Assembly (NCBI RefSeq): GCF_001625215.2
Contig: NC_030386.2
Location: forward strand, 39,402,796-39,466,795
Direction of reading: 5' to 3'
From: Daucus carota subsp. sativus
Lineage: Eukaryota; Streptophyta; Magnoliopsida; Apiales; Apiaceae
Length of the DNA: 64,000 nt
Position numbers and translations under genes: made by a program. A model generated the notes under the pieces. The model was given only the letters and a program-made list of their open reading frames with translations, ran no database searches and was not told where the DNA came from. The first letter of the stretch is position 1; each line of letters opens with the position of its first letter. Positions 34,536-62,659 of the stretch are shown here, in pieces.

Positions 34536-37500
34536 ATGTCGAAGCTTATTTCTTGTCATTCCGATCCCAATACGGCGTCGTTGGCTCCAAGGTTCAACTC
34601 GATCTTATTCATTTTTAGATTATTATGTGGTTATATTGTTGTTAACGGAGATCTAAAAACTAGTGTAGCACATGCAAGTGTTTACAAAACTAGGGTTTCT
34701 TGGATCCGTGCATTGTAGTTTTTTAATAATATAATAAATCAAAGTGAAAATTATGGTCTTAATGTTATGAAACCTGTTATGACTTGCAATAGAGAAAATC
34801 TTTACACGAAAACTGCTCGGACGGATCTAGCACACAAATGTTAGGGGGCACCAAGCAAATTTTCAAAAAATACCTATATATTTCTAAATTTTTTGGGGTA
34901 ATACCTATATATTTCTAAATTTTTTGGGGTCACTTTTATAATTTTAAAAAATTAAGCCAGTGCCTCTTCCTAGATCAGCCCTCTCCGTATGTCCCAAATT
35001 AGTGGTCATTTGAAATATTTATGCACGTATTTTAAGATGTTAGAAAATATTTATGCTACTTAATATTATTTTTTTGTCAATAAAATATATAAATAGTAAA
35101 TTTACTAAAATAGAAAACGGAAAATAATTTTAAAATATGTAAAATCATATTGACATTATTCGCTTCACTGATTTTAGTGTAGATTATTGTGTAATTTATG
35201 GTATGTCAAAAGACTTAAAAGTAATGTTGGTTAAAATTTTGAATTTCAGTGCTTTTGTTGATGGAATTTGTTGGCCTTTAAAGTCTATATACTTTAATCA
35301 GATTTTAGCGGTTTTTCTTGTAATATATACATATATATTTTTTGTTTTAGTTGAAAGTAATTTGATCACTTATCTTTTGTCAACTCATGAATTACTTTTA
35401 TAATGTTTTTGACACTTTGACCATTAATTGGTACAACTCATGTGATATAAAATATGTCGGTTCGAGTCTAACATATGCATTTTGATTTTGATTTTGATAT
35501 TTCTTATGATTATAATGATAATTTATTTTAGTTTTCAGCTGTAAGCATTGTTTTAAAAATTGGTGATTAATCATAATTATCTAATTAATCATCCGATGAT
35601 TAATTGTTATTTCGTGTTTCACCTTTAAATCCGATTCGCTCTTTTTATGAAATTAGTTGTAAGTGATAATTTACATACATAATTTACTTTAGCTTGTTTA
35701 TGTTCAATTAGTAATTAGTTTTCTTATAAAAATCGGTGATTAATCACAATTATCCAATTAATCATCCAATGATTAATTGTTATTTCGTGTTTCACCTTTA
35801 AATCTGATTCGCACTTTTTATGAAATCAGTTGTAAGTGATAATTTGCCAACATAATTTACTTTAGCTTGTTTATGTTCAATTAGGAATTAGTTTTCTTAT
35901 AATTTATTCGTCATCTAACAGACAGAGACAGGCCTAAAAGGTTTTTGAATAACAATATGCGATGTGGATACAGAGTTTTAGCCATTTGATATAGGCCAAA
36001 GCTTAGAAATAGAAACATGTAATGCTAAATCAAGTTTTGTTGTGTTGGAGATTATTTTTGTCAGAACTTGTACTGATAAATTATCTAATTTGCTTACTAC
36101 AAATTTGTGAGTTGTGATGATATTAAAGTTACCATTTTAGTACCTGTTCCATGGTGTTCTGTTTCGAAGACAAGTCAGTGTACTTAAAACAAGTATCAAA
36201 ATTGATTCTTGGAGTCATTATGTAGTTTTGATTCTGCTTGCTAATTTGGTTGGTGATTCGGTATTGATATGCAACTGACGTTTACTTGTCTAACTTGTCA
36301 ATGAACCGGATCACAAAGGACGGATGTGACTGTCTACTTTGCAGAAAGTCTTATTGCTGAATTCTTGTGCCGCCTTCCGGTGAAGATTCTGTTGCGTTGC
36401 AGATGTGTATCCAAACTATGGTGCTCTCTTATTGATAGTCCAAGTTTTGTTAAAAAACATCTTAAGAGATCCATTGAATGCAGAATGGGTACTGGTGTTA
36501 TCATTCGAGAATGCATTTCTTACTCGGTGGATTTTGATTCTCTGGATAATGGCTCTGCTATAGAAATTGATGAACCATTGAAGACCCTTCTCTGCGAGAC
36601 TGGATCTGTGGGTACGTGCAATGGCTTACTCTGCGTGTTTAATATGATGGGAGATATGTTCTTATGGAACCCGGCAACCAAAAAGTGCAGAAAGTTACCT
36701 ACTGCACCAGCTGATTTTCGTAGTGTTTTTAATTTCAGCTGGTCTTCCCTTTCTGGCTTTGGGTTTGATGTTGTTAATGATGACTACAAGGTTCTGAGAA
36801 TCCTTCGGCCTGATGATCCATTTTTGTCTGGATCCAAGGTCGTTGTTTACAGCCTAAAAACTAACTCATGGAAACGACTCCAAGACATTCCTGTTCAGTA
36901 CCAACTTAATGCATCATGGGGTAACTATCTAGGCGGGGCTCTGCACTGGATTATGGTAAAGACTCGGGATGTAGAAAGCTTCTTCCCATCAATTCTTGCT
37001 TTTGATCTGGGAGTTGAAAATTGTAGGGAGATTCCAATGCCCCACAAGAATGGTAAGGAGATGAGTCTAGTTATCTTTGAAGAATCCCTTTGCGTTCTTG
37101 AATTCCACCTTGATATTCATGTAGATGTGTGGGTGATGACTGATTATGGGGTGGAAAATTCTTGGTGCAAGCTATTTTCAGTAGAACAACCTAAAGTAAG
37201 TGAATCTTGTATGACTTTTAAGCCTCTCGCTTATTCTAAGAGTCAGAGGGATGTTCTTGTACAAGTGAACACTGAGAAGCTTATTTGGTATAACCTTGAA
37301 AAGAAGGAAGTGAGGACTGTTAAGATTGCTAATATACCAGATGTCTTTGATGTGGAAGTCTTCACTGAGAGCCTTGTTTCACTTGACTATAATTCCAGTA
37401 CTGATGGGAAGCAGGCACAGAAGCAACCAAAACAGAAGAATAAACAACAAAAGATGAAGGAGAGGTAAACAAATCTCATATCCATCTTATCAAGTGTTTC

Positions 37501-38693: not shown

Positions 38694-40584
38694 ATGATGA
38701 TGTCGAAGCTCCGTCCTTCCCGTTGTGATGGCAGCTGGTCATCTACTTCCAGGTTTTACACTATAAATCACTGCACTTGCGAGTTTCACTTTTACCTAGG
38801 GTTATTTTTATGAAAGTTTTTACCTAGGGTTTTGTGCAAGTTCTTATTTAGGGTTTTATATTGTATGTGTTGAATATTTAGATTGTTGTGTGTTGTAGCT
38901 TTGGTAAATGTAGATCAGAAAGTTTTTTACATGAATCTCTGAACATATTTAATTTTTACTTGCACGAATAATAATATGAACCCGTGTGCACATAAATTAA
39001 ATTAGTCATCTGTTTGTCACGTCATTTGGGGGAAAAAATCGGGAACAGAATTTGGGGAGCATTACTTTTGTCGTAATAGTAAACTGTAATTGATTGACAG
39101 TTTACCTGTTTAATTTAGCAGAGGACCAATAACAAATGCTGAATGTGACCCCAATAGTAAACTGTAATTGATTAGCAATTTACTTGTTTAATTTAGCAGT
39201 GCACCTCACCAATCACAAATGCTCAATGTGACCCCCTACCTGACCGAAGATCTGCTTTCTCAAATTTTGGATCGCCTTCCGGTGAAGACTCTATTGCAAT
39301 GTAGATGTGTATGTAAACCATGGTGTTCTCTCATCGATAGTCCGTGTTTTGTCAAAGCACATCTCAAGAGATCCAATGAATGCAATGCTGATACTAGTCT
39401 TCTTATTAGAGGTTTTGTTATCTGTTCGGTGGATTTTGAGGATCAATATAATGCTACTGCTAAAGAAATTGATGAACCGTTGAAATCTCTTCTCTATGGT
39501 ACTGGACTTGTGGGTACATGTGATGGCTTACTCTGCTTGTATAATCAGAAGCCAGACATTTTCTTATGGAACCCGGCAACAAGAAAGTGCAAAAAGTTGC
39601 CTGCGGCGCCAACTGGTTTCCGTTGTCCTTTTGACTACGACCGGTCTTCACAGTTGTGTGGCTTTGGGTATGATGTTGTTAATGATGACTACAAGGTTCT
39701 GAGAATGTTTCAGCCTGGTGGTAGTGATTTGTCTGGCTCGAAGGTCACAATATACGGTTTAAAAACTAACTCATGGAAACGGCTTGAAAATATTCCTAGT
39801 CACTTCGAGCTTATCGAAGCATGGGGGGTGTTTATGTGTGGAGCTCTGCACTGGGTTACATTCAAGACTCTAGAAAGCTGTTTTGTAATTCTTGCTTTTG
39901 ATCTTGGGGTTGAAACTTACAGGGAGGTTCCATTCCCTAATCTCGAGAATAAGAATCCTGATCAGTTTACTCTAACTATCTTTGAGGAATCCCTTTGCAT
40001 GCTTTACTATGACCCTTTTATTCATATTGATCTATGGGTGATGAATGACTACGGGATTGGAAATTCGTGGTGCAAGCTATTTACACTGGAACACCCAAAA
40101 GTAATAAGATCTGGTATGGATGTTAGGCCAATCGTTTATTCAAAGAGCCGGAGGGATGTTCTTTGGGAATCGGACAACAAGGTGATATGGTATAACCTTG
40201 AAAATAAGAAAGTGAAGACCCTTAAGATTGCTAATCTCCCAGACGAGTTTAATTTAAGTGTGTACAAGGAGAGTCTTGTTTCACCCGAGTTTGGTTTTAG
40301 TTGTGATGGGCAGCATCTACCGAAGCAACATGAAAAGAAGAAGAAACAGCGACAAGCGCAAAAGAAGAGGTAATCAAATTTCTTTAATTATACATGTATC
40401 TTTATCTGCTTGCTTTTAATTTTATACCTTGGTATATTAAAAATGTGTTTTGGATCTTCATCTCCAGTTCAAGAACTAGTTGTTGTATCTTTGTCTAGTG
40501 ACCAGTTTAGAAGTACTAACCATTTTGCAAATTTTGGTTTTTAGGGACAATTTCCTTGCAAAGGGATTCAAGCTGGTGTTATGA
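38694..40584 (+). CDS. F-box/FBA protein, tandem unit 2 (CPR1-like)
   Basis: SCF-type F-box protein. Exon 1 38694-38752 starts with three consecutive ATGs then TCGAAGCTC (MMMSKLRPSRCDGSWSSTS). Exon 2 39200-40369 carries the F-box (about residues 33-75: YLTEDLLSQILDRLPVKTLL, then CVCKPWCSLIDSPCFV) and the FBA domain. Exon 3 40545-40584 encodes DNFLAKGFKLVL. Total 422 residues. The exon 2 acceptor is a tandem TAGCAG: use of the first AG (exon from 39197) adds one serine without changing frame. The C-terminal part before the tail is a Lys/Gln-rich basic stretch, as in all units. An internal ATG at 39219 would give a protein that still keeps the F-box, so it is an alternative start. Confidence 0.85.
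39195..39199 (+). promoter_or_regulatory. NAGNAG tandem splice acceptor of FBX2
   Basis: TAGCAG offers two AG acceptors three bases apart. Both keep the reading frame (Ser-Ser-Ala versus Ser-Ala). The sister gene FBX3 has only the first AG at the equivalent place. Confidence 0.6.
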
Positions 40585-43842: not shown

Positions 43843-45643
43843 ATGTCGAAGCTTCTTTCTTCTCATTCCGATGCTTACACGACGTCGTTGTCAACTTCCA
43901 GGTTTCATCTCTTTCTTATTCCTCTAACCCCACTGTACTGTCAGTCTGTCACATTATTATTATCGTAATCGTTTTTTTAAGGAATCGTAAGTTTTTACCT
44001 AGGGTTTTGTGACAATTTTTACCGACGGTAATTAGGGCTTTGGGCAAGCTCTTAACTAGGGTTTTGTGCTATTTTTTACCCAGGGTAATTAGGGTTTTGG
44101 GCAATTTTGTAACTAGGGTTTTGAGGTGTGTGTTGAATAAATGGATTAATGTGTGTTCTGGCATCTGCTAAAATTGATTAACATGAATCATAATTTTACT
44201 AATTTGTCGTTATATTACATTTCGTTTTCGAAATTTTGATGAAGATAATAGGAAATTGTAATTGATTGACAATTTACTTGTTTAATTTAGCAATGGATCA
44301 CCTCACCGAACACAAATGCTGAATGTGACCCCGTACCTGACGGACGATCTGCTTTCTCAAATTTTGGATCGCCTTCCGGTCAAGACTCTGTTGCAATGTA
44401 GATGTGTTTGTAAACCATGGTGTTCTCTCATTGATAGTCCGCGTTTTGTCAAATTACATCTCAAGAGGTCCGCTGAATGCAACAAAAATAGGAGTGTTGT
44501 TATTCGAGGTTTTTATGCTTACTTGGCGGATTTTGATTCTCTGGAAGACAATTCTACTGCTGTAATAATTGATGAACCACTTAGGAGTGTTCTCCGCGGT
44601 ACTGGACTTGTGGGTTCGTGCAATGGCTTACTCTGCTTGTATCAACAGAAGATGGATATTTTCATTTGGAACCCTGCAATGAGAAAGTGCAAGCAGTTAC
44701 CTACAGCACCAGCTGATTTTGTTTGTCCTTTCAGCGTTGATCCGTTTTTCCTACGTGGCTTTGGGTATGATGCTGTTAATGATGATTACAAGGTCCTGAG
44801 AATTCTTCATCCTGATGGTCGTGAGGCAGGCTCGAAGGTTATAGTTTACAGCCTAAAAAGTGACTCATGGAAAAGGCTTCCAGATATTTCTTATCCCTAC
44901 CAAATAGTTCGAGATTTGGGTATGTTTCTGGGTGGAGCTCTGCATTGGATTGCAGTTACGACTCTGGGTGTTGAAATCTGCCTAATAATTCTTGCTTTTG
45001 ATCTTGGTGTTGAAAATTATAAGGAGATCCCATTACCTAATCTTCGATTCAAGAAATCTAATAAGTTGAATCTATGTACCTTTGCGGATTCCCTTTGTGT
45101 GCTCCTACTCGAAGCTGACATTCGTATAGACGTATGGTTGATGAATAATTATGGGGATGGAAATTCGTGGTGCAAGCTATTTTCACTAGAGCACACACAG
45201 TTAGTTAGTCCTTCTCTGTCTGTTAGGCCACTTGCTTTTTCAAAAAGTCGCAGGGATGTTCTTGTAGAAGTGAGTGACAAGAAGGTAATATGGTATAACC
45301 TTGACAGGAAGAATTTAAGGACGGTTAAGATTGCTAATATGCCAGCTGTGTTTCATGATATGGAAGTCTACACTGAAAGTCTTGTTCCACCTGACTACTT
45401 TTTAAGTTGCAATGGGAAGCAGCCAGAAGAAGAAAAGAAACAGAAGCGTCAACAAAAGAGGAATGAGAGGTAAACAAATTAATCCCTCTTGTCTTCCTTA
45501 TCTAGGTTCTTGTACTGTATAACAAAATTATGATATGTTGGATCTTCATATTTAACTTGACTAGAAGTAATGTCGGCTTGAATTTCATATGTTGTTTGCG
45601 CAGGGACAGATTCCTTTCTAAGGGCTTTAAGTTGGTGTTGTGA
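43843..45643 (+). CDS. F-box/FBA protein, tandem unit 3 (CPR1-like)
   Basis: Exon 1 43843-43901 (MSKLLSSHSDAYTTSLSTS), exon 2 44291-45469 (F-box starting YLTDDLLSQILDRLPVKTLL, then the FBA domain with FIWNPAM, YKVLRIL, ALHWI, ILAFDLGVENYKEIPLP and WYNL), exon 3 45604-45643 (DRFLSKGFKLVL). It gives 425 residues. The first and last codons of exon 2 are both split after two bases (phase 2). An internal ATG at 44316 is in frame and keeps the whole F-box, so translation from exon 2 alone is possible. Closest in the window to unit 2 in the N-terminal part (MLNVTPYLT(E/D)DLLSQILDR). By family it should bind SKP1 through the F-box and a target through the FBA domain. Confidence 0.87.
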
Positions 45644-45749: not shown

Positions 45750-46480
45750 CTTGTGTTTATTATTTAAGTAAATACTTGCTCTATGTTCACAGGTATTTTT
45801 GCATGGAGGAGTTGATATATTCGCATGGCGGTTGATCTACTATATATTAGTTCTCTTCTCTTGGTTTAGTTTGTGTTTTTTGTGAAACGTGGTGGTATTT
45901 CTTTGATATTAATATACGATGGATTATCCAGAGATTTTATGAATCTCTTTTAAATATGGTGTTTTCTTTTATTTTTGTCCAAATTTTGGAGTTTTTATTG
46001 AATCAATCTTTTCAAAAATAACTCAGATATGACAATAAAAACTTTCTAATCACATGTATTGGAGCATGGAATACTTTTATGGGTGGAGTTCAGCACTAGA
46101 GTCTAGATTATGTACTGTTCATGTTCATGCTTTTCTTGTAGTGTTTCTATATTATTTAAGTAAATAATTACTCTCTTGTTCACAGGTATTTTTGCATGGA
46201 GGAGATGATATGTTCTGATGTTCACATGGCGGTTGATCTACTATATATTAGTTCTTTTCTCTTGGTTTAGTTTGTGTTTTTTGTGAAACGCGGTGGTATT
46301 TGTTTGATATTAATTTATGATGGATTATCCGGAGATTTTATGAATCTCTTTAAAATATGGTGTTTTCTTTTATTTTTGTCCAAATTTCAGAGTTTTTGTT
46401 GAATCAAACTTTTCAAAATTAACTGTGACATGACAATAAAAACTTTCTAATCACATGTATTCGAGCATGGAATACTTTCT
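45750..46480 (+). repeat. Tandem duplication (~390-400 bp period) downstream of FBX3
   Basis: The sequence from about 45750 (TTATTTAAGTAAATA, then AGGTATTTTTGCATGGAGGA at 45791) recurs from about 46140 (AGGTATTTTTGCATGGAGGA at 46194). Similarity runs some 330 bases to about 46480 with small indels. It lies in or beyond the FBX3 3' UTR. Confidence 0.8.
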
Positions 46481-47192: not shown

Positions 47193-49639
47193 ATGTCCAA
47201 GCTAATCTCTTGTCATTCCGATCCCAATACGTCGTCGTCTTCTTCAAGGTTCAGATCAAATCTTATCATTCACCGAATTTTATGATTTTTGTTATTGTGT
47301 GGTGAATGTTTATATTATAGTTTGTTTGTAGCATCTGGTAATCGTGGATCCGATGCTTGTGTACTATAATTCTATAAATAACTGCTCGTGGAAGTTTTTT
47401 TTACCTAGGGTTTCATGTATTGTTACGCCAAAAATCCGTTACTATATATAGTAAAATCTCGATAAATTAATATAGCTACTCCCGCTGTCCCATGGATTGT
47501 TAACTCGAGGACTGAGGCTTGACGCACAGATATCTATAAAATTTTACAAATTATTTTAAAATTTTCTTCTTAATGAAAATTTAATGTTTAAATATCTGTG
47601 CAGAAAAGGAAAATCTTAAAATTAAATTATGAAAACAATGCAAAAAAAACTGGGAAAAAAATGAGAGGGAGGGAGGGAGAATTATTAAAAATCTAGACGT
47701 TCATGGACTAAAGCCTGGTTCGGAAATTAGAGTTAAAAATAATTAAATCAACCTCGGTCCAGCCAAGAAGTTAATTTGAAAAAATGTGAGAGTAAAGACC
47801 AAAAGATGGATATGTTATTAGAATCGTCAATATATTATAATCTCAGTTTAAAATTGTGATTTTGCCAAACACGATTTCGAAAATGAACCACCAGGCACAA
47901 TTTTACGTGTGCTCCGAAGACTTTAGCTGTTTTAGTTGGATGTTAATTTGGTAAAATCTTGAGACTGTGTTATATATTTTGATTGCTAATTATTTGTGAA
48001 CTGTGATGATAGTAATGTACTAATGTTATCAGTATAGTATATATTTCCTTGCTCTCTAACTTTTTAAAGCCAGGTCGATTCGTTTAAGAGGACTATCTTA
48101 AAAAAAATTTGTGATAGTTTTTTTTTGAGTACTTCGCAGACAATGTGGAATCATATATATACTTCTGTCTGTTATGACTGGTAGTATTGTATTATTGTTT
48201 TTGCTTACTGATCTGGTTCTCATTTGTGAAACATTATAGTTTTAAATATTTAAAATGCAACTGATATTGACGTTAAACCTGTTTACCTTAGTGATGGAAC
48301 TCTTCCCCAAAAGCTGAGCGTGAGCGCCACAGAGCATCTGATTACTGAAATCTTATGTCGTCTTCCAGTTAAGAACCTGCTGCGTTTTAGATGTGTATCT
48401 AAACCATGGTGTTCGCTTATTGATAGCCCACGTTTTGTCAAAGCACATCTGAAAAGATCCATTGAATGCAAAGCCAAACCTGGGATCATTATTAAAAGTT
48501 TCGTTTCTTACTCGGTGGACTATGATTCCCTAGGTCGTTCCACTACTGCTATTGAAATTGATGAACCATTAAAGACTTATCTCCATGCTACTGGGGATGT
48601 GGGTTCATGCAACGGCTTACACTGCTTGTATAATCTACAGACTGACCTTTTCTTATGGAACCCGGCGATGAGAAAGTGCAGGAAGTTACCTTCTGCACCA
48701 GCTGATTTTCTTCGTCCTTTTGAGTTTGACAAGTCTTCCCTCTGTGGCTTTGGTTATGATGCTGCGAATGATGATTACAAGGTTCTGAGAATTGTCCAGC
48801 CTGACGGTCATGACTTGTGTGGCTCTAAGGCCTCAATTTATAGCCTTAAAACTAACTCATGGAGACGACTTAAAAATATTTCTGGTCATTTCCAATTTTG
48901 GGGAGCATGGGGTATATTTATAGGTGGAGCTCTGCACTGGATTACAGTTACGCCTCTGGGCTCCCCATCAATTCTTGCTTTTGATCTTGGGGTTGAAAAC
49001 TATAGGGAGGTTCCGATGCCTAGACTTCAGAACAACTATTGTAAAAACATGAATATAGTTGTCTTTGAAGAATCCCTTTGCATGCTTGAGTATCACCCTT
49101 TTATTCGGATAGATGTCTGGGTGATGAAGGAATATGGGGTGGGGAATTCTTGGTGCAAGCTATTTTCGGTGGAACAGCCAAAAGTAACCAGATGCTGTAT
49201 GTCTATTACGCCTATCTTTTATTCAAAGAACCGTAAGGATGTTCTTTTAGAAGTGGATAGCAAGAAGTTGATGTGGTATAACCTTAAAAAGAAGAGAGCC
49301 AGGACTGTTAAGATTTCTAATCTCCCGGAAATTTTTGATTTGGAAGTCTACACTGAGAGTCTTGTTTCACCTGACTATAATATTAGTTGTGGCGGGCCGC
49401 AGGTGCCGAGCCAACCACAAGAGAAGAAAAAAAAGCAGCAACAGAGGAATGAGAGGTAAGTGATCTCCTATTTCTGTCACGTATCAAGACGTTGATTGAT
49501 TAGTATTCATATAATCGATTTTGATTAATACTTTGATTCAATCACATGAGTAACCTAGAAGGATTATGTTAGCAAATTTTGGATTGTTGCTTTTTGTAGG
49601 GACGAATTCCTTTCAAAGGGATTCAAATTAGTCTTATGA
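47193..49639 (+). CDS. F-box/FBA protein, tandem unit 4 (CPR1-like)
   Basis: Exon 1 47193-47248 (MSKLISCHSDPNTSSSSS), exon 2 48292-49455, exon 3 49600-49639 (DEFLSKGFKLVL). It gives 419 residues. The F-box begins TEHLITEILCRLPVKNLLRF at about residue 30; the FBA domain follows with FLWNPAM, YKVLRIV, ALHWITVTPLGSPSILAFDL and WYNL. The large exon has no ATG upstream of or within the F-box (its frame starts at a GTG), so the start must come from the mini-exon. Exon 2 and the second half of intron 1 are nearly identical to the first module of the next gene (recent duplication, about 47792-49480 against 51899-53590). The basic KKKKQQQRNER stretch precedes the tail. Confidence 0.88.
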
Positions 49640-51200
49640 GACGCTGGCTATTAGCAATAACAGGAGATTAAGGTAACTTAACTTTCTTTCTGCAATGGTG
49701 TGTGTGTGTGTAAAGTGTGTTAAAAAAATGTTTAAGGTTGATTCTATGGTTTTTGCACAGAGGAGACAATGTGGTGGAAAGAAGATTGGAATCTCTCGTC
49801 TAAATTTCAATGTTTTCCGATGAACTAATATGCATATGTAATTATCTTCTCCCAGTGAACTCTATTTTCTTTGGATATGTTGGCACTTGGTAGTTAATGC
49901 TTATGCATAGTACTGGTTTTGTTGGTTTAAATGCCAAATGTTGGTCTACAATACTTGTTTTGTTGGTTTAATTTATGTTTTGCTATGTTAATATGTGGAG
50001 ATTATCTGGTTCTATTAAGGTCTTCTGTTCAAGTGTTCTGGTTTAATATATGTTTTGCTATATCAGTACTGGACAGTATAAAATTTAGCATTACAAGTGA
50101 ATGATACTTCTCTGGATCCCCACAACACGATTTCTTCAACATATTGCATTGATTCTGGCAGTTCCTTGTAATCCTTAGTAAAAGGATTGTAAATATACTC
50201 AACATCCTTGTACAAGGAATCTCATACAGAGTTATCCATTTAAAGAACCTACAAACTGAACTCTGGCATTGAAGCGGTACATTAACAAAGACTACACAAA
50301 GCTCGTTTCGAATAGAAAAACCAAAATATGCAATTTAACTGTATAATTGTGCAAAAGCTCGCGTATCGATTTGCACGTATTACTTCACTTAGATGGCATA
50401 CGAAGGAGTTCTTTCAAAAAAAAAAAATGATAGCATGCGAAAGAGAAAGACAACTAAATCCCTCGGATAAAATATTATCTGCCATTCCTTGAACCAGAAG
50501 AATAACATACTATACAGTATACACTATTAATCAAGTTTTATCTGAACTTATTTGAATTGAATAATTTTTGAAATGAGTCTAGGCCAGCTGAGTTTTATAA
50601 CCCAGCCGATGATGATGTTCAAGATTGACTCATTAATAAACAACCTGAATCCAAGTCAAACATTAATTTGTTCATGAATTATATTTGTTTTTTAAATAAA
50701 GTTATTCAAAATTTAATATTTATAATTTTTTTTTTAACGTCAATATTTTTTTTTCTAAGTGAAAAACTATATGATAATATATTGAAATTTCATACATTAT
50801 TGAAAAATCTATTATGTTAGCAGTTTGAGATTTAATTTTTATAATATTTATTTATATCATGATGTAGTACGACTGTACGAGTAAGAAAGCTTCGAATGTT
50901 GTAGACGAGAGAAATTTTAATATTAAATTTCTTAAAAATAATTTTACGAATAACAAAAAAATATATTATCAAATTGAAAAATATAACCCCAGTCTCCACA
51001 AACAGTTACTTCCTTTGTGCCCGGAGGATAGTTTTTAATTTAAAATTTAAAACCCCATACGTTACGCTTACGCCGCGGTAAGATGATGAAAAGAACTGAA
51101 TAACGGTACGATAGGGTTTGTTTTGCAGGATATATAAGCAAACTTATAGTGTAAGTCTGTGACTGTGCGAGATCATAAACTCAAAGAGTAACAAACAAGG
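49640..51200. other. FBX4 3' region and spacer before the fused F-box gene
   Basis: 3' UTR with a short TG run (about 49697-49712), then AT-rich DNA without genes. TATATAAG at 51131-51138, about 65 bases before the next ATG, is the likely TATA box. Confidence 0.5.
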
Positions 51201-54200
51201 ATGATGTCGAAGCTTGTTTTTTGTCATTCCGACGCCAATACGTCGTCGTCTGCTACCCGGTTCTACTTTCATTTATTTTTTACTTTCGTTGATGTTGTTT
51301 TTGTTGAATATTTCGATATTATGGATTTTTTGCTGGTTGATCTTGATTTATGAGGTGTGTAGTACGTTATACGAGTCTCCAAATATTATGACATATATGT
51401 TTGTTGCGGATCTGGAGCGCATAATAATTATAAGAAAAATTAACGGTACCGTCTACTTGTTTCGTATGTTATGTTTGTTGCAGATCTGTAGTGAAGAAAA
51501 ATATTAATATGTGATGTAATATATCATATGTTTGTCTCGGATCTGAAGAAAAAATTAACAATATTCAGAAGTCGCATTTATTTCGATATGTCATATGCTA
51601 TAATATATTGACTAGCGGTAGATAAGCGAATCCGTGTAAATTAGATTTTTTGTTATCAATCCCACGTCTTATGTCATACGTTTGTTGTGCATCTATCATG
51701 AATATGATTAATAATATTAATATGTGTTACGGAATCTCATATGTTTGTTTCGGATTTGGGCTAATGATAATACGTGGTACGAAAAGTCATATGAGTACAT
51801 AATATGATTATAGAGTACTACATTGATGGTTGTTGACTTGTTGTGGTTTGTACATGGTTTTGCCCTTCATATTTATTGGAAATAAGTTGCTATAGTTTGT
51901 AAAGTCCAAAAGATGGATATGTTATTAGAATCGTCAATATATTATAATCTCAGTTTAGAATTGTGATTTTGCCAAACACGATTTCAAAAATGAACAACCA
52001 GGCACAATTTTATGTGTGCTCGGAAGACTTTAGCTGTTTTAGTTGGATGTTAATTTTGTAAAATCTTGAGACTATGTTATATATTTATTTGCTAATTATT
52101 TGTGAACTGTGATGATAGTAATGTACTAATGTTATCAGTATAGTATATGTTTCCTTGCTCTTTAACTTTTTAAAGCCAGGTTGATTCGTTCAAGAGGACT
52201 ATCTTTAAGGATTTTTGTGATAGTTAGCTTTTTTTGAGTACCTCACAGACAATGTCGAATCATATATATACTTCTGTCGGTTGTGACTGGTAGTATTGTA
52301 TTATTGTTTTCGCTTACTGATCTGGTTCTCATTTGTGAAACATTATAGTATTAAAAATTTAAAATGCAACTGACATTGATGTTAAAACTGTTTAATTTAG
52401 TGATGGACCTCATCCGCAAAAGCTGAGCGTAAGCGACACAGAGCATCTGATTACTGAAATCTTATGTCGTCTTCCGGTTAAGAATCTTCTGCGTTTTAGA
52501 TGTGTATCTAAACCTTGGTGTTCGCTTATTGATAGCCCACGTTTTGTCAAAGCACATCTGAAGAGATCCATTGAATGCAAAGCTAAACCTGGGATCATTA
52601 TTAATAGTTTCGTTTCTTACTCGGTGGACTATGATTCCCTAGGTCATGCCACTACTGCTATAGAAATTGATGAACCATTAAAGACTTATCTCCATGCTAC
52701 TGGGGATGTGGGTTCATGCAACGGCTTACACTGCTTGTATAATATACAAACTGACCTTTTCTTATGGAACCCGGCAATGAGAAAGTGCAGGAAGTTACCT
52801 TCTGCACCAGCTGATTTTCTTCGTCCTTTTGAGTTTGACAAGTCTTCCCTCTGTGGCTTTGGTTACGATGCTGCGAATGATGATTACAAGGTTCTGAGAA
52901 TTGTCCAGCCTGACGGTCATGACTTGTGTGGCTCTAAGGCCACAATGTATAGCCTTAAAGCTAACTCATGGAGACGACTTCAAAATATTTCTGGTTATTT
53001 CCAATTTTGGGGAGCATGGGGTATATTTATAGGTGGAGCTCTGCATTGGATTACAGTTACGCCTCTGGGCTCCCCATCAATTCTTGCTTTTGATCTTGGG
53101 GTTGAAAACTATAGGGAGGTTCTGATGCCTAGACTTCAGAACAACTATTGTGAAAACTTGAATATGGTTATCTTTGCAGATTCACTTTGCATGCTTGAGT
53201 ATCACCCTCTTATTCGGATAGATGTCTGGGTGATGAAGGAGTATGGGGTGGGGAATTCTTGGTGCAAGCTATTTTCAGTGGAACAGCCAAAAGTAACCAG
53301 ATGCTGTATGTCTATCACGCCTATCTTTTATTCAAAGAACCGTAAGGATGTTCTTTTAGAAGTGGATAGCAAGAAGTTGATGTGGTATAACCTTAAAAAG
53401 AAGAGAGCCAGAACTGTTAAGATTACTAATCTGCCGGAAATTTTTGATTTGGAAGTCTACACTGAGAGTCTTGTTTCACCTGACTATAATATTAGTTGCG
53501 GCGGGACACAGGTGCTGAGCCGACCACAAGAGAAGAAAAAACAGCAGCAGCAGAGGAATAAGAGGTAAGCGTTCTCCCATTTTTATCACATATCAAGATG
53601 TTAAATGATTAGTTCTCATATAATCGAGTTTCACTAATTCGTTTATTTGCTTATGTTATGTTTTTTTTGCTTTCCTTACTAATTTGTTTTCTTAAATTGT
53701 GATTAATGATTAATGATGATATTAAAATGTATATGACGTTTCATGTTCAACTTAGGGATGGACCTCAATCACAAAGGCTGAATGTGACTCCCTACCTGAC
53801 GGAATTTCTGGTTTCTGAAATCTTATCTCGTCTTCCAGTAAAGACCCTGTTGCAATATAGATGTGTATCTAAACCCTGGTGCTCTCTTATTGATAGTCCA
53901 CGCTTTGTCAAGACCCATCTTAAGCGATCTATTGAACACAACACCAATACTGGTCTTATAATTAGAGGTGACAATTTCCACCTGGTGGATTTTGATTGTC
54001 TTGAACAAGCCACTCCCGTTGAAATTGACGATCCGTTGAGGATACGTCTCTATGGTTGTTCAATCGTGAGTAATATCGATGGATTACATTGTTTGTATAA
54101 TCCAAAACCAGACATATTCATATGGAACCCGGCAACCAGAAAGTGCAGACACTTGCCTGATGCACCAGCTGATTTTAATCGTCCTTTCGGCTTTGGTGGG

Positions 54201-55110
54201 ACTTCCCTTTGTGGTTTTGGGTATGATGCTGTTAATGATGACTACAAGGTTATGAGAATTCGGACCGATGATCATGGTTTGGCTGGCTCTAAGGTCATTG
54301 TTTATGGACTAAAAACTCACTCATGGAAACGCCTTAAAAACATTCCTTATCAGTTCCAGCATTTTGGAGTATGGGGTATGTTTATGGGTGGAGCTCTGCA
54401 CTGGATTACAATTAAGAGTGGGGGATGCCCATCAATTCTTGCTGTCGATCTTGGGGTTGAAAATCAGAGGGAGATTCCATTGCCTAGACTTCAGACTAAG
54501 AATGTGAATCAACTAAGTATAATTACATTCGAAAAATCCCTTTGCATACTTGAATACTTGTTTGGTGTTCGTCTAAATGTATGGGTTATGAAAGATTACG
54601 GGGTGGGAAATTCTTGGTGCAAGTTATTCTCGGTGGACCAACCAAAAGTAATTAGATCTTTCGTGTCCATTACACCTCTTGCTTTTTCAAAGAGTCGTAA
54701 GGATGTTCTGCTAGAAGTAGACAATAAGAAAGTGATGTGGTACGACCTTAAAAAGAAGAAAGTTAAGACTGCTAAGATTGCTAATTTACCAAGTATATTT
54801 GATTTGGAAGTCTACACTCAGAGTCTTGTTCCGCTCGACTATAATATGACTTCTGATGAGAAGCAACTGCAGAAGCAACCAAAGGAGAAAAAAATACAGC
54901 AGCAAGTGCAAAAGAGGGATGTGAGGTAAGCAAATGCCTTATGCGTCTTATCTAGTCTTTTAACCATCTTTATTCTCATTTGCAAATTAGTTGTGGGATC
55001 TTTATCTTTATTGCATGACCAGCCGGAAGTATTATAATGCTTGCTGAAATTTTCATGTTGCTGTTTGCAGGGACAAATTTCTTTCAACGGGATTCAAGTT
55101 GGTATTATGA
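51201..55110 (+). CDS. Predicted double F-box/FBA fusion protein (tandem units 5 and 6)
   Basis: Exon 1 51201-51259 (MMSKLVFCHSDANTSSSAT), exon 2 52401-53564 (module 1: F-box and FBA, basic end QQQQRNK), exon 3 53756-54925 (module 2: DGPQSQRLNVTPYLTEFLVS F-box plus FBA) and exon 4 55071-55110 (DKFLSTGFKLVL). All junctions are in frame; the product would be 810 residues with F-boxes near residues 35-75 and 418-460. Between modules there is only a 191-base intron (53565-53755). Its start resembles the tail intron of FBX4 and its end resembles intron 1 of the family, and neither a tail exon for module 1 nor a first exon for module 2 is present. Module 1 lacks any ATG before its F-box, so it depends on exon 1. 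The single transcript is inferred from splice signals and frame; module 2 might instead be expressed on its own. Confidence 0.7.
53706..55110 (+). CDS. Alternative: F-box/FBA unit 6 as a separate gene
   Basis: If module 2 of the fused locus is transcribed alone, an ATG at 53706 opens a frame that reads through the 53755/53756 acceptor into DGPQSQRLNVTPYL and on to 54925, joined to 55071-55110. The product would have about 420 residues with an N-terminus (MINDDIKMYMTFHVQL) unlike the MSKL start of the other units. There is no recognisable promoter in the 140 bases between this ATG and the end of module 1, so I prefer the fusion model. Confidence 0.35.
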
Positions 55111-57099: not shown

Positions 57100-57944
57100 G
57101 GGATCTTTTTAAAAATACCCATCTGTAAAATTATTTTTTTAAAAATACTACCATCTTTTTCATTGTTTTTAAAAATACCTTTTCATAAATTTTTTTTTTC
57201 AAAAATACGATTTGCAACTTTTGCAACCTCATTTGCAACCTTGGGCGGCGCAGCCGTAAAAGTTGCAAATGAGGTTGCAAAAGTTGCAAATAAAAATGGA
57301 AAGTTGCAACTAGTTCAACTGAAAACTATAAGTTGCAAATGAGGTCGCAAAAGTTGCAAATGAGGTTGCAACTGCAGTTGCAACTTTTGCAACTGCAGTT
57401 GCAACTTCATTTGCAACCTAGTTGCAACTAAATGCAACTGAAAACTATATATAGTTGTAAATGAGGTTGCAAAAGTTGCAAATGATGCAAATGAGGTTGC
57501 AACTGCAGTTGCAACTTTTGCAACCTCAGTTGCAACTAAATGCAACTGAAAACTGTAAGTAACAACAGATGTATGGTGTGCCCCTGGCGGGGCCATTAGA
57601 TTACAATAGAATCAACTGAATGCAACCATATGCAACTGAATACAACCATATGCAACCATATATGCAATTACAAATCCTGATTTCAAGTTCCAGTTTTCAA
57701 ATGTTATTTTCGACCTCATTTTCGGGATCGATATATATATATATATATAAATGAGGTCGAAAATGACATTTTAAAACTGGAACTTAAAATCAGGTTGCAA
57801 CACGGCTGGCGCCGCCTGTAGTTGCAAATGAGGTTGCAAAAGTTGCAAACAGTATTTTTGAATTTTTTTTTTATGAAAATGTATTTTTAAAATAGTATTT
57901 TTGAAAACAATAAAAGAAAAGGTAGGTAGTTTTGTAGATTTCCC
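57100..57944. mobile_element. Compact Mutator-like MITE with GCAAC repeats and central (TA)n palindrome
   Basis: Unsplit copy (845 bp) of the family at 3400-7776, in opposite orientation. Ends GGGATCTTTTT and GATTTCCC; terminal inverted arms of about 150-160 bases. The 9-mers AAAGAAAAA (57091-57099) and AAAGAAGAA (57945-57953) fit a 9-bp target duplication. The interior is built of TTGCAACTTTTGCAACCTC-type repeats in both orientations and a palindrome (CGACCTCATTT...AAATGAGGTCG) around (TA)n at 57731-57750. It ends about 545 bases upstream of the CDPK start codon. Confidence 0.75.
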
Positions 57945-58488
57945 AAAGAAGAATACATGAATAATTTAGAAAAACTAAAATATATATAAATAAAAGCTTT
58001 CAGACAATAATTTATGGTGTACCAACAGAAAATCTAAAAAAACACAAAACATAAGAAGACAGGCCACAAGGAATCCGAGAAAATTTAGAGCGACAAAATC
58101 TGGGGAGAGAATAGGAAGATCTGAGTGATATTTGATGGAGTATACTAGTGTGAAACAGCGATGAAAAAAAAATGATTTTTATTTTTAATTCTTGATTTCT
58201 TGAGTCATTCACTAGTTTCTTCTTATCTCTTACCCTAAATTTCAGGGAAAGATTGATCTTTTATTACATAGACTTGATTTTCTTGACTGTTTCTTCTCAT
58301 CTCTGACCCTGGGGAGTAGAAAAGGAATGATCTCTATTACCATATATTCTTCAGTTTAATCTTATTGATTCATTCAAGTCACAGAGAGGGGGGGAGAGAG
58401 ATTCTTAATTCATTCATCAAGTGAGAAAGAGAGAGGGGAGAGATTCTTGGCTTCATTCGTCAGGGGAGGGAGAGAGAGGGAGAGAGAG
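57945..58488 (+). promoter_or_regulatory. CDPK promoter region and GA-rich 5' leader
   Basis: No clear TATA box chosen. 58384-58488 is strongly GA-rich (GAGAGAGA runs) and is probably the 5' UTR. The in-frame TTG region before 58489 is not a likely start. Confidence 0.4.

Positions 58489-62659
<4,171 letters not shown>

Follow-up and report, generated by a model that had tools for sequence, protein, structure and literature searches.

A two-module F-box gene in a carrot receptor array and its possible origin by placement of a neighbour's exon within an intron

Six related main exons lie on the plus strand of the 64-kb window (the whole stretch of DNA that was analysed), starting at about 36.3, 39.2, 44.3, 48.3, 52.4 and 53.8 kb, and in all six the aligned 385-386 codons are open. 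We call the first four units 1 to 4 and the last two modules 1 and 2. The main exons of units 1, 2 and 3 are contained in the plus-strand open frames 36305-37464, 39192-40369 and 44286-45469, as defined by profile matches and alignment; unit 4, a single-module sibling on the plus strand at 47193-49455, consists of an exon 1 (47193-47248) and a main exon (48292-49455). In unit 1 (36280-36330) there is no AG at the place of the siblings' intron 1 acceptor, and an AG slightly further in preserves the phase. In unit 2 (39074-39215), 39074-39128 and 39153-39210 each align with unit 3 at 44246-44307 (87%), an apparent duplication of the end of intron 1 and the start of exon 2 that possibly provides a decoy acceptor.

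Modules 1 and 2 belong to one fused gene at 51201-55110, also on the plus strand, in which one small first exon is followed by module 1, module 2 and one tail exon. The coding part of its exon 1 (51201-51259), recognised by alignment to exon 1 of units 1, 2, 3 and 4, begins MMSKLVFCHSDANTSSSAT, and the ATG at 51204 lines up in register with those of the siblings. Intron 1 (51260-52400) lacks alignment to unit 4 over 51333-51898; over 51899-52400 it shares 94% identity with intron 1 of unit 4. The module 1 exon (52401-53564), bearing an F-box and an FBA-type F_box_assoc_1 domain, has no stop and is 95.9% identical to unit 4 with no indels between them; a hybrid intron of 191 bases (53565-53755) separates it from the module 2 exon (53756-54925), which bears an F-box and F_box_assoc_1/FBA_1 and shares 61% amino-acid identity with module 1. 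The tail intron of module 2's gene spans 54926-55070, and the coding part of the tail exon (55071-55110), read from the spliced frame, ends DKFLSTGFKLVL and then a stop. Module 1 is without a tail exon of its own, and a sensitive BLAST of the region against the window found no family-type exon 1 belonging to module 2.

The first-pass annotation of this DNA had claimed that a module 1 donor is followed directly by the acceptor of module 2, and both borders are present: module 1 ends ..AATAAGAG before GTAAGC at 53564/53565; 191 bases on, at 53755/53756, comes the following border of family type, between ..TTCAACTTAG and GGATGGACC. Its claim that neither a first exon nor a tail exon lies between them stands too; exon-1-like sequence, sought by sensitive BLAST against the window, occurs at 51178-51332 only and not in the 191-base interval, and no tail exon was seen there. 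Joining 51201-51259, 52401-53564, 53756-54925 and 55071-55110 gives a predicted protein of 810 residues and 92.7 kDa, with both modules within one open frame via splice-type borders and a K/Q-rich linker between them.

Profile matches agree with the two F-boxes and two FBA-type domains that had been ascribed to this predicted translation. The F-box profile PF00646 scores 38.3 and 32.4 bits in modules 1 and 2 (cut-off 20.5), and F_box_assoc_1 (TIGR01640) scores 114.3 and 97.9 bits (cut-off 37.9), covering positions 2-231 of 232; Pfam FBA_1 is above its cut-off in module 2 only, and not in module 1. F_box_assoc_1 was found in all six main exons of the array and the Pfam F-box in all five that were scanned for it, every one except unit 1. 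A search of solved structures returned three weak F-box matches (E 0.49 to 0.79). Judged by these profiles, both modules carry the F-box that marks SCF substrate receptors and the domain that marks the FBA subfamily.

The small 5′ exon (MSKL..) ends in phase 2 in all five genes that have it (units 1-4 and the fused gene), and the main exon has the 3′ end AG/GTAA in six of six. Since main exons are thus phase 2 at both ends, any joining or skipping of a main exon is in frame. The junction between the modules does keep the frame, as the first-pass annotation had pointed out, but with an exon of this symmetry we reject the kept frame as special evidence of fusion. Skipping of module 2 is predicted to give 420 amino acids and skipping of module 1 to give 422, both in frame; retention of the 191-base intron leads to a stop at 53566-53568 and a product of 408 amino acids. 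The open frame of module 2 extends upstream to an ATG at 53706. The phase-2 donor of exon 1 in the fused gene, CCCG/GTTCTA, is without the A at -2 that is present in four of four siblings, and for this reason the use of exon 1 may be weak.

The interval between the modules is U-rich and has GT-AG ends. At 47% U and 26% GC it resembles the five tail introns of the family (41-46% U, 25-35% GC), unlike the two exons measured, which have 42 and 41% GC. Its first 83 bases match the tail intron of unit 4 at 66 of 83 positions, a likeness equalled by none of 1000 mononucleotide shuffles; with the remaining four tail introns they show no match, since between 273 and 999 of 1000 shuffles did as well. 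A DNA search of the genome with 53520-53800 returned only the query itself and unit 4. The 3′ part shows a weak likeness to the ends of the family's first introns, with 1, 4, 24, 73 and 121 of 1000 shuffles as good in the five comparisons, and in BLAST of module 2 against module 1 or unit 4 the alignments run from the exon back to 53657-53659. Thus the proposal that this is a hybrid, starting as a tail intron and ending as an intron 1, is upheld for its start and weakly supported for its end.

The likeness to unit 4 is not confined to the exon. The segment 51899-53647 is 94% identical to unit 4 at 47792-49538, with sharp ends that both lie inside introns; the right end falls inside unit 4's tail intron, after which module 2, an old relative, follows. 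We take unit 4 to be, on this alignment, the source or sister of module 1. No target-site repeat was seen by eye at the ends of the copy, and a transposon-type insertion was set aside. Left of 51899 the only part of the fused gene that aligns with unit 4 is 51184-51332 (exon 1 and its edges), at 70%; neither the rest of the promoter side nor the left of intron 1 aligns with unit 4. This absence is meaningful because units 1 and 4, a far older pair (dS of about 0.58 between their main exons, against 0.09 for module 1 and unit 4), still align in the promoter side, exon 1 and the start of intron 1 over 294 bases at 76%, and align again within the 3′ half of intron 1. The 5′ part of unit 4, since it aligns with that of unit 1, looks native.

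The two trees disagree with each other. Module 1 groups with unit 4 in the main-exon tree (ultrafast bootstrap 100), in which the place of module 2 has a support of 43; a tree of the exon 1 region, built from five short sequences, puts units 1 and 4 together to the exclusion of the fused gene, with a support of 75. Identity across the exon 1 region is 0.75 between units 1 and 4, 0.71 between unit 1 and the fused gene and 0.63 between unit 4 and the fused gene. The corresponding counts for coding exon 1 (48/56, 46/56 and 45/56) say little on descent by themselves. A simple fusion by one deletion requires the 5′ part to descend together with module 1, which is not what alignment, exon 1 and trees indicate, though module 1 may have been converted, or the 5′ part replaced, at a later time; by these sequence comparisons the 5′ part of the fused gene differs in descent from module 1. 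We infer by exclusion, module 2 having no other exon 1, that this 5′ part was once in module 2's gene. The simplest reading is that one old gene accounts for the promoter side, exon 1, the left of intron 1, module 2 and the tail, along with the end of the hybrid intron, and that the unit 4 segment came to sit in this gene's intron 1.

Divergence from unit 4 is uneven along the copy. Right of 53499 it amounts to 25/149 (16.8%), as against 70/1596 (4.4%) elsewhere in the copy, and none of 500 permutations gave a change-point as strong as that at 53499. Introns compared with introns show the same (17/83 in the tail-intron part and 30/496 in intron 1; Fisher 7e-5). We read this as most of module 1 having later been converted by unit 4. 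If such conversion occurred, a divergence of 4 to 6% would understate the age of the arrangement, because most of module 1 would have been refreshed.

The coding sequence of module 1 shows moderate purifying selection, which is moderate evidence that the module is still functional, although conversion can contribute to the signal. Between module 1 and unit 4, dN is 0.029, dS 0.094 and dN/dS 0.31. With changes polarised by the other units, 12 synonymous and 15 nonsynonymous changes fall on the module 1 branch, 6 and 9 on the unit 4 branch, and 6 could not be assigned; no difference between the branches is seen (Fisher 1.0). By a plain site count the neutral chance is 0.006 for module 1 and 0.08 for unit 4. 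For module 1, the probability of at most 15 nonsynonymous changes in 27 is 0.0096, 0.026, 0.036 and 0.057 at transition weights of 1, 2, 2.6 and 4, of which 2.6 is near the value from the intron (17 transitions, 13 transversions). Across 1164 exon bases no indel separates module 1 from unit 4, as against 3 across about 500 bases of intron. Module 1 could, however, have been kept whole by conversion from unit 4, with no selection acting on the fusion. For module 2, dN/dS (NG86) to the other five main exons is 0.31 to 0.45, and for the other pairs 0.31 to 0.52.

We searched one genome assembly (441 Mb, 11 contigs). A protein search with module 2 gave at least 72 matches at E 1e-20 or better, a lower bound from 107 scored of 727 candidates; matches to module 2 reach at least 58% in the six local exons and no more than 46% in the other 66, and no unfused copy or better donor was found beyond the array among these matches. 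Modules 1 and 2, 213 bases apart, are the closest pair among them, and the next closest, at 929 bases, includes a partial match with a stop. A DNA search with 50650-51895 recovered the query itself and at least 41 partial matches (40 of 115 candidates scored), all inside 50679-50863; the siblings' exon 1 is absent among the matches listed. This stretch upstream of the fused gene, 74-85% identical to at least 41 places in the genome, is a dispersed, MITE-like repeat.

A survey of 30 related loci (L003-L032), limited by strand (plus) and a motif filter, led to the inspection of 16, of which 6 are local; the other 14 comprise 12 on the minus strand and 2 below the motif filter. Among the 10 non-local loci inspected, 7 (L009, L011, L012, L014, L015, L019 and L025) have, within one exon, a Met immediately ahead of the F-box and an AG/GT at the exon's end, and 3 are without this combination. 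Within this partial survey the small 5′ exon looks like a novelty of the array, one that would have rendered the main exon internal and symmetric.

We propose that a unit-4-type segment (the end of intron 1, the main exon and the start of the tail intron) was placed within intron 1 of module 2's gene, either in one step or in two, the first a tandem duplication whose ends lay in the first introns of the two genes and the second a deletion of the spacer. The copied exon, phase 2 at both ends, could have been spliced without breaking the frame, and gene conversion with unit 4 would later have refreshed most of the copy. The product would be an SCF substrate receptor whose two halves, joined by the K/Q-rich linker, each have a SKP1-binding head and an FBA-type domain; such a protein might also act as a bridge, as the first-pass annotation suggested. 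If one main exon were skipped, the same promoter could yield receptors with a single module, 420 or 422 residues long. We consider it somewhat probable that this is a two-module gene of such an origin, most of the copy having been converted, that would make a double-headed receptor and, by exon skipping, single-module ones. A bolder version, in which the locus encodes a working two-headed SCF receptor, or three receptors by exon choice, with the neighbour's exon kept by selection after it was copied into the intron and the array primed for this by the small 5′ exon, seems to us improbable as a whole.

The origin offered by the first-pass annotation was a deletion or unequal crossing-over, between a tail intron and an intron 1, that fused adjacent genes for module 1 and module 2. 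With later conversion of module 1 by unit 4 added, this is a possible if doubtful course of events, and the conversion reading leaves room for it, module 1 then being unit 4's older sister. The ends of the intron are compatible with it, starting tail-intron-like and ending weakly intron-1-like; the 16.8% divergence right of 53499 is as expected for an older sister; and the divergence of coding exon 1 from unit 4 (11/56) is of the same order. It has to account, however, for a 5′ part that is unlike unit 4 despite a main exon 95.9% identical: outside 51184-51332 the promoter side and left intron 1 do not align with unit 4 where those of unit 1 align over 294 bases, and in the exon 1 region tree (support 75) units 1 and 4 group without the fused gene. 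Another event would, moreover, be needed for the copy to break off so abruptly on its left, at 51899. Because of this 5′ evidence we hold a deletion to be less likely than insertion into the intron.

Two other accounts concern what the locus makes. The modules might rarely or never meet in one mRNA, with splicing picking one or the other of two symmetric exons, flanked by an exon 1 and a tail exon in common, to make two receptors with different targets; that the combinations of 810, 420 and 422 amino acids are all in frame is compatible with this, but 191 bases are long enough for ordinary splicing, and we think such a choice of exons rather unlikely. It is likewise unlikely, in our view, that the locus is decaying or holds two independent units, with module 1 read alone up to the stop at 53566-53568 and module 2 either unread or read from the ATG at 53706. 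The upward reach of module 2's frame to that ATG, the 408-residue module 1 protein that intron retention would give and an exon 1 donor weaker than those of the siblings all suit this account. Against it stand the lack of a family-type exon 1 in the 191 bases, two intact frames of 1164 and 1170 bases and a module 1 branch with fewer nonsynonymous changes than neutral expectation.

Plant F-box families turn over fast, and their members normally have one F-box and one receptor domain. It was fair to call a double F-box unusual, as had been done, although a soybean precedent is in print: GmFBX505 is named as having two F-box motifs where 725 soybean F-box proteins are aligned (PMC5412402). What it shares with the carrot gene is a pair of F-box motifs in a plant protein; the passage in question is silent on whether it has two receptor domains and on its origin (PMC5412402). 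Some baculovirus Lef-7 proteins have three F-box domains, putative in the paper's own words (PMC6105029); they too have more than one F-box, but are viral, a different protein, and their domains are putative. The phrases "two F-box domains", "more than one F-box" and "F-box repeats" occur in PMC9859564, PMC5029927 and PMC5995976 respectively. Among the matches listed for double, tandem or multiple F-boxes and fusions, in literature from which most subscription papers are absent, none described a double F-box/FBA gene whose origin had been worked out. Multiple F-boxes in one protein are so already a known kind, given GmFBX505 and Lef-7, and this locus is a resolved variant of it.

The fused gene resembles the plant F-box/FBA (TIGR01640) receptors of tandem arrays in that, by profile, both of its modules are full members of the family, and clustering of FBA-type genes is also described (GmFBX377-380 within 18 kb in soybean; PMC5412402). 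Those receptors have one module per frame, whereas the carrot fused gene has two, plus an extra small 5′ exon. The locus also recalls the shuffling of symmetric exons. In that process, a phase-symmetric exon added inside an intron preserves the frame. The frame would be preserved alike at this locus, where the unit moved is the whole F-box and receptor exon of a neighbouring paralogue; bivalent or splice-selectable receptors could arise in a simple way by the copying of a symmetric whole-receptor exon into a neighbour's intron.

Several other features of the window were noted. Two local repeats, each in two copies, 173 and 261 bases long and 92-93% identical, lie at 35548-35893 and 45817-46478, and 57200-57860 consists of low-complexity repeats of TTGCAACT-like words. 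Just after the array, at 58369-62659 on the plus strand, a protein kinase gene (by Pfam) continues into exons that are EF-hand-like by eye, and is probably a calcium-dependent protein kinase.
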